Part shown: in pieces, positions 2,645-7,345 of the stretch
How the letters are laid out: each line of letters opens with the position of its first letter
Numbering within the stretch: the stretch's first letter is position 1
NCBI GenBank assembly: GCA_947457715.1
Contig: CANGXK010000054.1
Span: forward strand, 1 to 10,183
Direction: 5' to 3'
From: Gemmatimonadota bacterium
GTDB taxonomy: Bacteria > Gemmatimonadota > Gemmatimonadetes > Gemmatimonadales > Gemmatimonadaceae
DNA: 10,183 nt
The notes under the pieces: generated by a model
What the model was told of the DNA's origin: nothing
The model's database searches: none
The model's input: the letters and a program-made list of their open reading frames with translations, nothing else
Made by a program: the position numbers and the translations under genes

Positions 2645-3487
2645 TCAGGCGTCGCGCAGGAACGACGTGAGATCGCGGCGGAAGCGCTCCGCGAACGCGT
2701 AGGTGCGCTGCGGAAAATGATCCGAACCCACGTAGTGCGTGATCTCGAGCGTTGGATTCACCGCCAGAATCACGTCGGCGTGCTCATCGACGAATGCCGC
2801 TCCCAGCGATGCGTCACAGCGAATCAATCGCGTGGGTCGACGAAACGGCTGGGTCGTGTCAATCGACGCGAACATCTCCTGCACCGGCAGTCCCCAGCAC
2901 GCCGGATCCTGACGCTGCAACGCCGACGCATGACTCAGGATCTGCCGATGTCCCATGTGATCGGCGAACACGCCGCCCGACGGATGCGGCGTATTCGCGA
3001 TTGCCGCATACCAGTCATCGAGTGGTGCTTGCGCCGCACGCAGCTGCGTGATCAAGCCGATCAGCAGCGCAAACCGACGGGGATACACCGTCCGGTGGAA
3101 CTCTTCGGGAATGCCGAAATACCAGGCCGGGTCCAGCATCAGGACGGAGTGCACCAGTGCGTCATCACGCTGCGCGAGCGCACCGGCCACCACGCCACCG
3201 AGCGAATGCCCCACGATGCGGGTCGGCGCGCCGATGGCGGCGAGTATCGCAGTAGCGTCGGACACGTAGTCCGCAATGCCATAGCGTTCGGCGCGCGCCG
3301 AGTGGCCGTGTCCACGAAAGTCCAGCGCGTACACGCGATAGCGATCACTCAGCTCCACCGCCCAATCATACCAGACGTCACGGCTGTTGCTGATCCCGTG
3401 CATCAGCAACACCGGGGGCAACTCCGGGCGGCCGTACACGGACGCGGCGAGCGCCACACCGGCATTGTCGATCGTGATGTCGTTCAT
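2645..3487 (-). CDS. Alpha/beta hydrolase fold protein
   Basis: A 280-residue single-domain enzyme with the usual length for the family. Visible landmarks: the oxyanion-loop motif 'LLMHGISNSRDVW' (His30-Gly31), 'ALDFRGHGHS' after strand 4, the nucleophile elbow GHSLGG with Ser95, a probable acid in 'IRCDASLG' (Asp225) and the catalytic His257 in 'GSDHFPQ'. The triad is therefore complete. No signal peptide, so it is cytoplasmic. Likely reaction: hydrolysis of an ester or related bond; the substrate cannot be read from sequence. I chose ATG at 3485-3487 because the fold begins right after it ('MNDITIDNAGVALAASVYG'); a TTG at 3518-3520 would add 11 residues with no family-like content. It is convergent with the cytochrome fragment and divergent from the bciA-like gene, with 90 bases between the two starts. 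A BchO-type role was considered and not supported. Confidence 0.88.
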   Translation of the reverse strand: MNDITIDNAGVALAASVYGRPELPPVLLMHGISNSRDVWYDWAVELSDRYRVYALDFRGHGHSARAERYGIADYVSDATAILAAIGAPTRIVGHSLGGVVAGALAQRDDALVHSVLMLDPAWYFGIPEEFHRTVYPRRFALLIGLITQLRAAQAPLDDWYAAIANTPHPSGGVFADHMGHRQILSHASALQRQDPACWGLPVQEMFASIDTTQPFRRPTRLIRCDASLGAAFVDEHADVILAVNPTLEITHYVGSDHFPQRTYAFAERFRRDLTSFLRDA

Positions 3488-3577
3488 GGGCGTCCGTGGG
3501 CAAAGGGAGAGAGGGTGCAAACTACGCGCGTCACTTCCGCATTCCCAGCGGACGCGATACGGCGCATCTTTCCGGAC

Positions 3578-4567
3578 ATGACGTCACGCCCGCCGCTTCG
3601 CGTGTTCATGCTCGGCGCCACCGGCACCATCGGTCGCGCCACCGTTCGGGCGCTCGTCCGCCACGGACACGAGGTCGTCTGCTTCGGTCGTCCCCGTCGC
3701 ATCGGCGGCCGTGCACCCGTGACGACCAGCGCCGGTGTCACCATGCGTGAAGGCGACGTCGGCGACCCGGTGTCGGTCGCCCGCGATGGCTTCAAGGGCG
3801 AGCACTTCGATGCCGTCGTCTCCTGCATGGCGTCGCGCACCGGCACCCCGCGCGATGCGTGGGCCATCGACCATCAGGCGCATGTGCATGTACTCGAGGC
3901 TGCGAAGGCCGCGGGCGTGCCGCAGATGGTGTTGCTGTCGGCCATCTGCGTGCAGAAGCCGCTGCTGGCCTTCCAGCAGGCCAAGCTGGCGTTCGAGCAG
4001 GCGCTGATCGACTCCGGACTGACCTGGTCCATCGTGCGCCCGACGGCATTCTTCAAATCGCTGGCAGGGCAGGTCGAGCGCGTGAAGCGCGGGAAGCCGT
4101 TCCTGATCTTCGGTGACGGCACGCTCACCGCCTGCAAGCCGATCAGCGACGACGACCTCGCAGAGTTCATCGTGTCCTGTCTCGAGGACCCGGCGCGGCA
4201 GAACCGCGTGCTCCCCATCGGTGGTCCGGGCGAGGCACAGACCCCGCGTCAGCAGGGCGAGCAGCTCTTCGCCTTGCTCGGACGCGAGCCGCGCTTCAAG
4301 CAGGTGCCGGTGGCGCTTCTCGACACGATCATCAGGGTGCTCACCCTTCTTGGCCGCGTGATTCCGCCGCTGGCCGACAAGGCGCAGCTCGCGCGCATCG
4401 GGCGCTACTACGCCACGGAATCGATGCTCGTGTGGGACGCGGAGCACGCGCGCTATGATGCCGACGCCACGCCGTCGACCGGACACGACACGCTCACGGA
4501 ATTCTTCGCCAAGCGGTTGCGCGGTGACGCGCATGACGATCGCGGCGAACACGCGGTGTTCACGTGA
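3578..4567 (+). CDS. bciA: Divinyl chlorophyllide 8-vinyl reductase (BciA-type)
   Basis: A 329-residue NAD(P)H-binding protein of the atypical short-chain dehydrogenase (NmrA-like) type. The dinucleotide motif GATGTIG is at residues 13-19. The rest carries a run of signatures I recognise from BciA and plant DVR: 'VVSCMASRTG', 'LLSAICVQKPLLAFQQAKL' (119-137), 'RPTAFFKSLAGQVE' (154-167), 'FGDGTLTACKPISDDDLA' (178-195), 'VLPIGGPGEAQTPRQQGE' (211-228), 'LGREPRF', and 'IGRYYATESML' then 'TPSTGHDTL' near the end. These enzymes reduce the 8-vinyl group of divinyl (proto)chlorophyllide with NADPH, a late step of (bacterio)chlorophyll synthesis in the cytoplasm. No internal break is seen. ATG 3578 starts just before the Rossmann strand; an in-frame GTG at 3515, preceded by AAAGGGAG, would add 21 residues. 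No other pigment gene lies in the window. Function is inferred from motifs; another reductase of the same fold is possible but less likely. Confidence 0.85.
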   Translation: MTSRPPLRVFMLGATGTIGRATVRALVRHGHEVVCFGRPRRIGGRAPVTTSAGVTMREGDVGDPVSVARDGFKGEHFDAVVSCMASRTGTPRDAWAIDHQAHVHVLEAAKAAGVPQMVLLSAICVQKPLLAFQQAKLAFEQALIDSGLTWSIVRPTAFFKSLAGQVERVKRGKPFLIFGDGTLTACKPISDDDLAEFIVSCLEDPARQNRVLPIGGPGEAQTPRQQGEQLFALLGREPRFKQVPVALLDTIIRVLTLLGRVIPPLADKAQLARIGRYYATESMLVWDAEHARYDADATPSTGHDTLTEFFAKRLRGDAHDDRGEHAVFT

Positions 4568-4580
4568 TGCAACGCCCCGC

Positions 4581-5141
4581 CTAGCGGAGCCCGCGCACGA
4601 ACTGCAGATACACGGCGCGCTGCGCGTCCACCGCCGCCACCGGACCGAAGCACTGAAAGAACAGCGTCCCGCGCGGCGTCTCGGCCACCACGGCAATCAG
4701 CTTGTGCCCGGGACGTGCCGCATCGGGCGCTGAACCCGCGCCCGTGCCGCGCGCATAGGTGCCACTGTACTCGGCGATCGTGAGTGGGAACGCACCCGTC
4801 GTATCGCGGCGCACCGTCTCCGCCACCGGGCCGCCGGCGGGATTGCTGAACTGACTCTTCCATCGGTCCAGATTCGCCTGCGACGAGCCCCCCTGCCCCG
4901 GACCGAAAAAGTACACCACGATCTCCACGGGAGTCGCGCGACCGGTCGCCGGCACGCGATACTCCGCGAGACGCATGGTGGACGACGGCGCGGCCGCGAC
5001 CCATCCCGCCGGCACGGTGGTGCGGTACTCGAGGAAGGACGCCGCTGCCGGCACCGTCGCGGCCCTCTGTGCACGAAGGGACGCGGCCGGTACGACCGCC
5101 GTTACGGTCACGGTGAGGAACAGGAGGCGAAGCGCGTTCAT
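4581..5141 (-). CDS. Secreted protein of unknown function
   Basis: A 186-residue protein with a clear Sec signal peptide (residues 1-24, 'LLFLTVTVTAVVPAASLRA', cut before Gln25), so the mature form is periplasmic or outer-surface. I do not recognise a named domain. The mature part has a pattern I associate with uncharacterised exported proteins of Acidobacteria and Planctomycetes: 'PAGWVAAAPSSTMRLAEYRV', then 'VEIVVYFFGPGQGGSSQANL' and 'DRWKSQFSNPAGGP', later 'ETPRGTLFFQCFGP' and a closing helix 'AQRAVYLQFVRGL'. This is a compact alpha/beta layout, and no catalytic motif stands out. It ends 13 bases from the convergent bciA-like gene and is transcribed away from the YccF-like gene. Start ATG at 5139-5141; the ribosome site is weak (GAG about 6 bases upstream). 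Confidence 0.8.
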   Translation of the reverse strand: MNALRLLFLTVTVTAVVPAASLRAQRAATVPAAASFLEYRTTVPAGWVAAAPSSTMRLAEYRVPATGRATPVEIVVYFFGPGQGGSSQANLDRWKSQFSNPAGGPVAETVRRDTTGAFPLTIAEYSGTYARGTGAGSAPDAARPGHKLIAVVAETPRGTLFFQCFGPVAAVDAQRAVYLQFVRGLR

Positions 5142-5761: not shown

Positions 5762-7345
5762 ATGTCGACCACGCGCCGCGAAGCCCTCGCACGACTGAGC
5801 GCCCTGCTCGCCATGCCACTCGTTGGCTGGCCCCTCCGCGCCGACGATCCGCTCGCCGGCACGATCGCGCAGTTCCAGGCGGGTCGCCTGCGCGGTGACT
5901 TCTCCGCCGTGGACGTAACCACGGAAGCGCTGAAACGCTGCCGCGACTGGAACGGCACATTGCGCGCCATCGATCAGCTGGCCGACAGCGCTCTCGGCGA
6001 AGCGCGCGCGTCGGACGCCCGCGCCGCGCGACGCGCACTGATCGGCCCGCTCGACGGCGTACCGTTGTTCGCCAAATCGATCTACGACATGAAGGGGTTG
6101 CCCACCACCGCGTCCAGTGCGGAGTGGGCGCGCCTCTTTCCGATGCCGGTCAGGCGCGACGCGCTCGAGGTGCAGCGCCTGCGCGGCGCCGGCGCGGTAC
6201 TACTCGGCAAGACTGCGGCCGATGACTTCGCGTATCGTGGCAACGGCACCAGCTCGCTGACCGGACAGGTCCGCAATCCGTACGACCCCGCCGGCGTGCG
6301 CACTCCGGGTGGCTCGAGCGCCGGATCCGCCGTGGTCGTCGCCTGCGGGATGGCCTTCGCCGCCCTCGGCACCGACGATGGTGGATCGAATCGTATTCCC
6401 GCGCAATTCACCGGCGTCGTCGGCATGAAGCCGTCGTTCGGGCTCGTGCCACGCAGCGGCGTGATCCCCACGTGGCCATATCGCGACACCCATGGCCCGC
6501 TCGCGCGCACAGTGGCCGATGCCGCGTTGATGCTCGATGCCATCGCCGGCCCCGATGCGTCGGACGGTCTCGCCGATCGCTCGCCATATGCGCGCGGCTT
6601 GCTCCGCACGCTCCGTGACGACGCACTGGTGGGAGCGCGACTTGGCATCGTCGAGCTGCACGTGCCGCGGGCGCAGATGACCGCCGAATGCATCGACGTG
6701 TTCGACCGCGCGATCGCCGACTGCACGCGCGCTGGCGCCACGGTGGCATCATTCGCGCCACCCGTGGATCGCGTGAATGTGCGTGACCTGTTTGCCGCCG
6801 ATGCGAAGTCGCACGGCCGCATCGCACCGGACCACAACGCACCGGCGCCGACCGCAAATGCCCTCCTGCGCTACTTTCGCCGGCACGGTGGTGATGCCGA
6901 GCGGAATGTGCAGCACGGACTCGCGGCCTTCCGCTCGTTCTACGACGTGCTGCCCACCGAGTGGGATGCCATGCAGCAGCTTCTCGTGCAGCCGTATGAG
7001 GAGGACGCCGCCAGCCAATCGTTCGCCCGGTCGCGCGCGAGCGCCGTGGCGCAACTCGATGCGGCATTCCGTGCCCAGCGGATCGACGCGATGGTGTACC
7101 CCACGATGCCCTTCGGGGCGCCCGCCGCGACCGATCCGTGGCCCGATGTGCGCACCGCCCTCGGTTACGGCAACTGGCTGGGCCTCCCCGAGGTTTCGGT
7201 ACCCGCCGGATACGGCGCGAACGGGATGCCGGCGGGGAATCTGTCATTCGTCGGACTCCCCGGCAGCGATGCACGCCTGTTGGCGCTCGCGCATGCCTAC
7301 GAACAGCGTTCACGCCGGTTTACGGCGCCACCAGCACCGGCGTGA
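5762..7345 (+). CDS. Amidase signature family hydrolase, exported (Tat-like signal)
   Basis: A 527-residue enzyme of the amidase signature family. The Ser-cisSer-Lys triad is complete: Lys105 in 'PLFAKSIYDMKG', cis-Ser185 in 'PGGSSAGSA', and nucleophile Ser209 in 'GTDDGGSNRIPAQFTG'; the 24-residue spacing of the two serines is the family norm. Such enzymes hydrolyse amide bonds (GatA, acetamidase, fatty-acid amidase types). The substrate here is not readable, and no gatB or gatC is nearby, so GatA is unlikely. The N-terminus 'TTRREALARLSALLAMPL' holds twin arginines (5-6) before a hydrophobic stretch and a likely cut near Ala27, which suggests Tat export to the periplasm. ATG 5762 fits this signal; the open frame continues upstream through the YccF-like gene in another frame but is not family-like there. 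An NTF2-like lipoprotein gene follows after 47 bases, probably in the same transcript. Confidence 0.9.
   Translation: MSTTRREALARLSALLAMPLVGWPLRADDPLAGTIAQFQAGRLRGDFSAVDVTTEALKRCRDWNGTLRAIDQLADSALGEARASDARAARRALIGPLDGVPLFAKSIYDMKGLPTTASSAEWARLFPMPVRRDALEVQRLRGAGAVLLGKTAADDFAYRGNGTSSLTGQVRNPYDPAGVRTPGGSSAGSAVVVACGMAFAALGTDDGGSNRIPAQFTGVVGMKPSFGLVPRSGVIPTWPYRDTHGPLARTVADAALMLDAIAGPDASDGLADRSPYARGLLRTLRDDALVGARLGIVELHVPRAQMTAECIDVFDRAIADCTRAGATVASFAPPVDRVNVRDLFAADAKSHGRIAPDHNAPAPTANALLRYFRRHGGDAERNVQHGLAAFRSFYDVLPTEWDAMQQLLVQPYEEDAASQSFARSRASAVAQLDAAFRAQRIDAMVYPTMPFGAPAATDPWPDVRTALGYGNWLGLPEVSVPAGYGANGMPAGNLSFVGLPGSDARLLALAHAYEQRSRRFTAPPAPA

Follow-up and report, generated by a model that had tools for sequence, protein, structure and literature searches.

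The window, by which we mean the whole stretch of 10,183 nucleotides from a Gemmatimonadaceae genome that was analysed, contains an open reading frame at positions 3578..4567 of the forward strand that starts with ATG, is free of internal stops on translation and encodes a protein of 329 amino acids. On the basis of its intact frame, domains, homology, tree position and structural model we assign this gene as bciA, encoding a divinyl (proto)chlorophyllide 8-vinyl reductase. Pfam identifies an NAD(P)H-binding domain (PF13460, 2e-25) and an NmrA domain (PF05368, 4e-11), but not the FrhB/FdhB domains PF04422 and PF04432, the absence of which rules out an assignment as BciB, an unrelated ferredoxin-type, FrhB-like protein that probably carries out the same chemical step. 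The BciA/DVR motifs named in a preliminary description of this DNA are all present in the translation. The dinucleotide-binding loop VFMLGATGTIGR (residues 9-20, positions 3602..3637, forward strand) agrees at 8 of 12 positions with the peptide ILVLGGTGTIGR from BciA of Acaryochloris marina (PMC4836224), but is also seen in unrelated paralogues and is not diagnostic alone. The BciA signature DSGLTWSIVRPTAFFK (residues 145-160, positions 4010..4057, forward strand) matches a further A. marina BciA peptide at 12 of 16 positions, a score reached by none of 1000 shuffles. Sequence, Pfam and model concur in a GxxGxxG-type NAD(P)H-binding atypical SDR fold; the closest counterparts of the AlphaFold model (pLDDT 87.5, pTM 0.87) among the 50 structures listed are NADPH-dependent NmrA/isoflavone-reductase-like proteins and NDUFA9, and none of the 50 is named as BciA. 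No sigma-70-like promoter or terminator was found at the gene, nor does the PpsR-type motif TGT-N12-ACA occur upstream of it, the sole copy in the window being located at 2857.

A divergently oriented alpha/beta hydrolase gene (2645..3520, reverse strand, identified by Pfam) lies next to bciA and adjoins it also in the stretches L001-L005 and L183. As far as is known this hydrolase stands outside the pathway; an assignment as BchO was rejected, the model score being 43 bits against a cut-off of 172.55. On the other side, an amidase gene (5762..7345, forward strand) is a conserved neighbour, with an orthologue of 68-86% identity accompanying bciA in 15 of the 36 stretches from Gemmatimonadaceae. 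The remaining neighbours encode a Band-7 protein, a broken PQQ dehydrogenase/cytochrome c, YccF, a VPS10-like protein and hypothetical proteins. The gene order is common to the window, L001-L005 and Gemmatimonas groenlandica, in agreement with the Gemmatimonadota-like context first described. The wording "housekeeping or envelope genes" is roughly right. In G. groenlandica the bciA product is 83% identical to that of the window and PQQ dehydrogenase, YccF, amidase and VPS10-like genes are likewise found nearby, whereas the window differs in having the hydrolase gene directly upstream and an internal gap in the PQQ gene. At 1819-2611 of the window the N-terminal part of the PQQ dehydrogenase, covering profile positions 1-76 of 595, is directly joined to the cytochrome c domain of this protein in a different frame, which reflects either an internal deletion or a misassembly; the counterpart pieces in G. 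groenlandica (L170) lie about 1.8 kb apart, at 4284-4610 and 6389-6736.

Relatives of the protein are abundant. A pattern scan of 84,980 species genomes gave 577 matches, 516 of which encode a relative; the best 80 of these are 67-84% identical over almost the full length, Gemmatimonadota MAGs ranking first, followed by Burkholderiales and relatives of alphaproteobacterial phototrophs. In a protein search that scored the 8000 candidates with the most words in common, the 120 matches listed include a 100% identical entry (P0002) and the G. groenlandica protein (P0018), and many of the relatives among them carry the source name divinyl chlorophyllide a 8-vinyl-reductase. In an alignment of 31 rows, in which the window is 62-85% identical to its 30 relatives, 86 columns are invariant, and the window, itself one of the rows that define them, retains all 86. 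Judged by sequence, chance is excluded as the source of this resemblance.

The protein could still be a general NmrA-like oxidoreductase of the atypical SDR type that has another function and merely resembles BciA, given that the fold and the NAD(P)H domain are common to the large NmrA/isoflavone-reductase group and that no NCBIfam model, and hence none specific to BciA, reaches its curated cut-off with the window protein. We regard this as extremely improbable. Three distant NmrA-like paralogues retain 18-21 of the 86 BciA-invariant columns and split off in the BciA tree with starred support of 100, leaving the window on the BciA side, although paralogues so distant make this an easy test. 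The source names, the peptide matches to a proven BciA and the co-occurrence with pigment genes described below also speak against another function. The trees were built after removal of L187 (G064), in which the frame is broken after about 262 residues, and of two short paralogues. They place the window in a clade of eight (98, starred) with L001-L005 (G001-G005), G. groenlandica (G061) and G079. A more careful tree, from which L003 and roughly half of the rows from Pseudomonadota had been removed, is weakly resolved, with 21 of its 64 inner branches starred, but recovers the window within a clade of seven (100/96, starred).

A link to enzymes of demonstrated activity is provided by A. marina, in which the genes formerly named nmrA and frhB were shown by complementation to be bciA and bciB, respectively (PMC4836224). 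The A. marina BciA peptides printed in that paper match the window protein in colinear order, and five of the seven are clearly matched, in a comparison with peptides as opposed to whole proven proteins: three score above all 1000 shuffles, two are equalled by 11 and 5 shuffles, one is marginal (47) and one is unmatched (535). The first of them, from the nucleotide-binding region, is matched by the paralogues as well. In summed score the window (231) and a BciA-like protein from Cereibacter ovatus (L052; 241) exceed the paralogues (107-153). A. marina differs in also possessing bciB, whereas the two genes occur together in none of the Gemmatimonadaceae genomes examined. The function of BciA in R. 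sphaeroides has been established with mutants (PMC4432870). Compared with such purple-bacterial, DVR-type enzymes, the window protein is similar over its full length (72% identity to the Cereibacter relative), shares the invariant motifs and is likewise encoded apart from the photosynthesis gene cluster (PGC); the differences are confined to host phylum and local neighbours, with no distinguishing feature in the protein sequence. The identification as a BciA-type 8-vinyl reductase is borne out by homologues, source names, A. marina peptides and tree, and the protein would be expected to have this activity, together with the cofactor of the BciA type. The gene itself is unremarkable, its family and its kind of host both being known, and its annotation is a plain one.

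The preliminary description had treated the isolated position of bciA as remarkable. We compared 101 bciA-bearing stretches of 3-21 kb (one genome being represented twice, by L056 and L189) with 20 PGC proteins encoded on two annotated plasmids, a query set that lacks puf, bchC, X, Y, Z, I and D and crt. This set found no match elsewhere in the window. Clear PGC genes were found near bciA in four stretches (L046, L051, L062 and L077), all from Pseudomonadota, and weak matches of 32-39% identity in three, those in L021 and L060 being possibly bchX; the other 94 gave no match. Among the 36 Gemmatimonadaceae stretches none has a PGC gene of this 20-protein set beside bciA, and in Rhodobacter sp. 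CZR27 bciA likewise lies among sox and aromatic-degradation genes. An unlinked bciA is therefore normal: almost all relatives, those in the Pseudomonadota included, carry the gene away from the PGC. The earlier view of it as a satellite of the cluster is supported; the view that its isolation is unusual is not. In Limnohabitans (L077:4669-10996), bciA is located about 2 kb from bchG-bch2-bchP, near the site taken by a bciB-like gene in some Gemmatimonadaceae, and in L051 and L062 a bchH-like gene, itself bordered by genes for B12-binding (AerR-like) proteins, is found no more than about 7 kb from it.

We surveyed 179 Gemmatimonadaceae genomes for pigment genes, using a threshold of E <= 1e-40 for bciA and the curated cut-off for bchL; the genome of L070 (G016) belongs to this set and that of L006 lies outside it. 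The bciA gene occurs in 36 genomes, with fragments at contig ends in two others (G063 and G082), while pufM is found in 44, bchL in 45 and at least one of the two in 46. Of these 46 genomes 33 carry bciA (35 counting the fragments), compared with three of the 133 that have neither pufM nor bchL (Fisher 5e-24, the genomes not being independent). All seven nearest relatives of the window in the BciA tree have pufM and a bchL match above the curated cut-off, and we infer that the window organism is phototrophic, with a PGC of its own.

The preliminary description had also considered the reductase as an orphan or as repurposed; the host would then have lost bacteriochlorophyll synthesis or never possessed it. 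This is very unlikely for the window, because bchL and pufM are present in all seven nearest relatives, and the retention of every invariant column by the window protein also tells against it. Three genomes have bciA but no bchL or pufM match (G017, G071 and G097). In G097 a bchP fragment is found at a contig end. G017 (L071) has bciA, with bchL, pufM, bchX, acsF and bchP all below cut-off, and is either incomplete, mixed or a true orphan. A comparable state does apparently exist in the relative G071, in which bciA is intact, with 82 of the 86 invariant columns preserved, and adjoins the amidase gene. Away from it, a 695-kb contig (C2) bears a truncated photosynthesis cluster (L304:14766-19901 and L305:1-6372) comprising aerR, broken into two frames, ppsR, bchG, bch2 and bchP, followed by hemA, hemE, hemF and hemG. 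The truncated cluster lacks bchFNBHLM, and bchL, pufM, bchX and acsF were not found in this genome, which looks like that of a former phototroph that has kept bciA, provided that the MAG is complete enough.

A second gene is relevant to the same step. A PF04432 match is present in eight of the 179 genomes (G138, G139, G142, G144, G148, G149, G150 and G158), none of which has bciA. In all eight the gene is part of the PGC and is flanked by a retained bch2 and by bchP, whereas in G. groenlandica, Pseudogemmatithrix spongiicola and G071 bch2 adjoins bchP without an intervening bciB-like gene. The two proteins tested contain both FrhB domains (PF04422 and PF04432), and the sequences share 65-67% identity with proteins from Rhodopseudomonas, Rhodoplanes, Roseomonas and Litoreibacter, with eight cysteines invariant across 14 rows. 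BciB carries two [4Fe-4S] clusters. For three peptides of the proven BciB from A. marina, the comparison being to peptides only, the scores were equalled by 363, 31 and 215 of 1000 shuffles, so that a clear match was not obtained. Judging from its family, its place and its mutual exclusion with bciA, we take this gene to encode a putative BciB. It is very probably the "frhB" reported in the bchP2G operon of hypolimnetic phototrophic group 1 instead of bch2 (PMC8547001), and in the PGCs of two orders, where it was suggested to replace bch2 (PMC9426454). The main texts of these papers draw no link between frhB and vinyl reduction; searches in them found bciA in neither and no bciB in the latter.

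The two genes seem to replace each other within the family, because P. spongiicola (G152) possesses bciA and lacks the bciB-like gene, while its six closest relatives by rpoB have the bciB-like gene. In the rpoB tree, for which 22 of 30 genomes gave a sequence at E <= 1e-100 and 21 were entered (G015, in two pieces, being dropped), P. spongiicola is sister to these six genomes (100/100, starred). It falls among them in the PufM tree (99/90, starred), although an AU test does not reject the six as a clade without it (p 0.349). Four PGC-bearing genomes have neither gene (G031, G066, G080 and G143). In G080 the contig ends 189 bases past the amidase gene, where bciA is expected, and G066 is a MAG of 2.0 Mb. 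The near-complete G031 (first contig 2.99 Mb) is a real exception: its PGC (L200) has bchG adjoining bchP without bch2 or bciB, and no bciA was found in the genome, the best BciA-like match being 27% identical. Since G031 has a PGC, the 8-vinyl step appears possible without both enzymes, and it may be covered there by chlorophyllide a oxidoreductase, which in producers of bacteriochlorophyll a can itself reduce the 8-vinyl group (PMC4432870). Taken at the level of sequence, it is probable that in phototrophic Gemmatimonadaceae the 8-vinyl step is swappable, being served by an unlinked bciA or by a bciB between bch2 and bchP in the PGC, never by both; that the "frhB" described in print as a replacement of bch2 is bciB beside a retained bch2; that at least one switch separates P. 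spongiicola from its six bciB-bearing relatives; and that both have been lost in at least one lineage (G031), which relies on chlorophyllide a oxidoreductase instead. We found no account of this alternation in Gemmatimonadaceae in the main texts of the literature searched.

We consider it about 93% probable that bciA was brought into the Gemmatimonadaceae from Pseudomonadota, together with the photosynthesis genes or at about the time they came, and has been inherited vertically at a site elsewhere on the chromosome than the PGC. The encoded enzyme would be an NADPH-type atypical SDR that converts the C8-vinyl group of divinyl (proto)chlorophyllide into an ethyl group during bacteriochlorophyll a synthesis. 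In the family this step would fall to either of two unrelated enzymes, BciA encoded away from the PGC or a BciB-like iron-sulfur protein encoded within it, and chlorophyllide a oxidoreductase may take over where both are missing. The history of its own that had been proposed for bciA was not confirmed: the BciA and PufM trees broadly agree, and a single Gemmatimonadota clade is not rejected by AU tests in either (p 0.242 and 0.311, respectively). Acquisition of bciA separately from the PGC, on more than one occasion within the family, is rather doubtful on these results, and also because the amidase neighbour suggests one old locus for the subset of stretches that have it, G. groenlandica and G062 included. 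In its favour, G012, G093 and G094 stand apart from the main Gemmatimonadaceae set in both trees, and P. spongiicola carries bciA inside a group characterised by the bciB-like gene. The PufM sequences of G012, G093 and G094 (L135, L139 and L141) group with Pseudomonadota, separately from the remaining 37 rows of Gemmatimonadaceae. For these three genomes a second acquisition is possible but is not demanded by the AU tests; two acquisitions of PGC and bciA within the family, as suggested by both trees, are unsupported by the same tests. Across the phylum, two acquisitions, in the orders Gemmatimonadales and SG8-23, have already been claimed (PMC9426454).

The interest of the window lies in a pathway step whose gene is not part of the cluster that moved. 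The comparison of genomes names, lineage by lineage, the enzyme that would fill the 8-vinyl step, and it is the alternation of bciA and bciB, rather than the window gene, that adds interest: it allows the puzzling "frhB" to be read in a way that can be tested, and the bciA and bciB lineages form a natural pair in which two unrelated enzymes of a single pathway can be compared. The PGC of Gemmatimonas is the textbook example of phototrophy transferred as a whole from one phylum to another. G071 is an apparent former phototroph with bciA retained. No clean empty bciA site was found in the non-phototroph G060 (probably G. aurantiaca), in which the amidase and 3-mercaptopyruvate sulfurtransferase genes are near each other, in changed order and without bciA; in G070 a 3-mercaptopyruvate sulfurtransferase gene flanks bciA.
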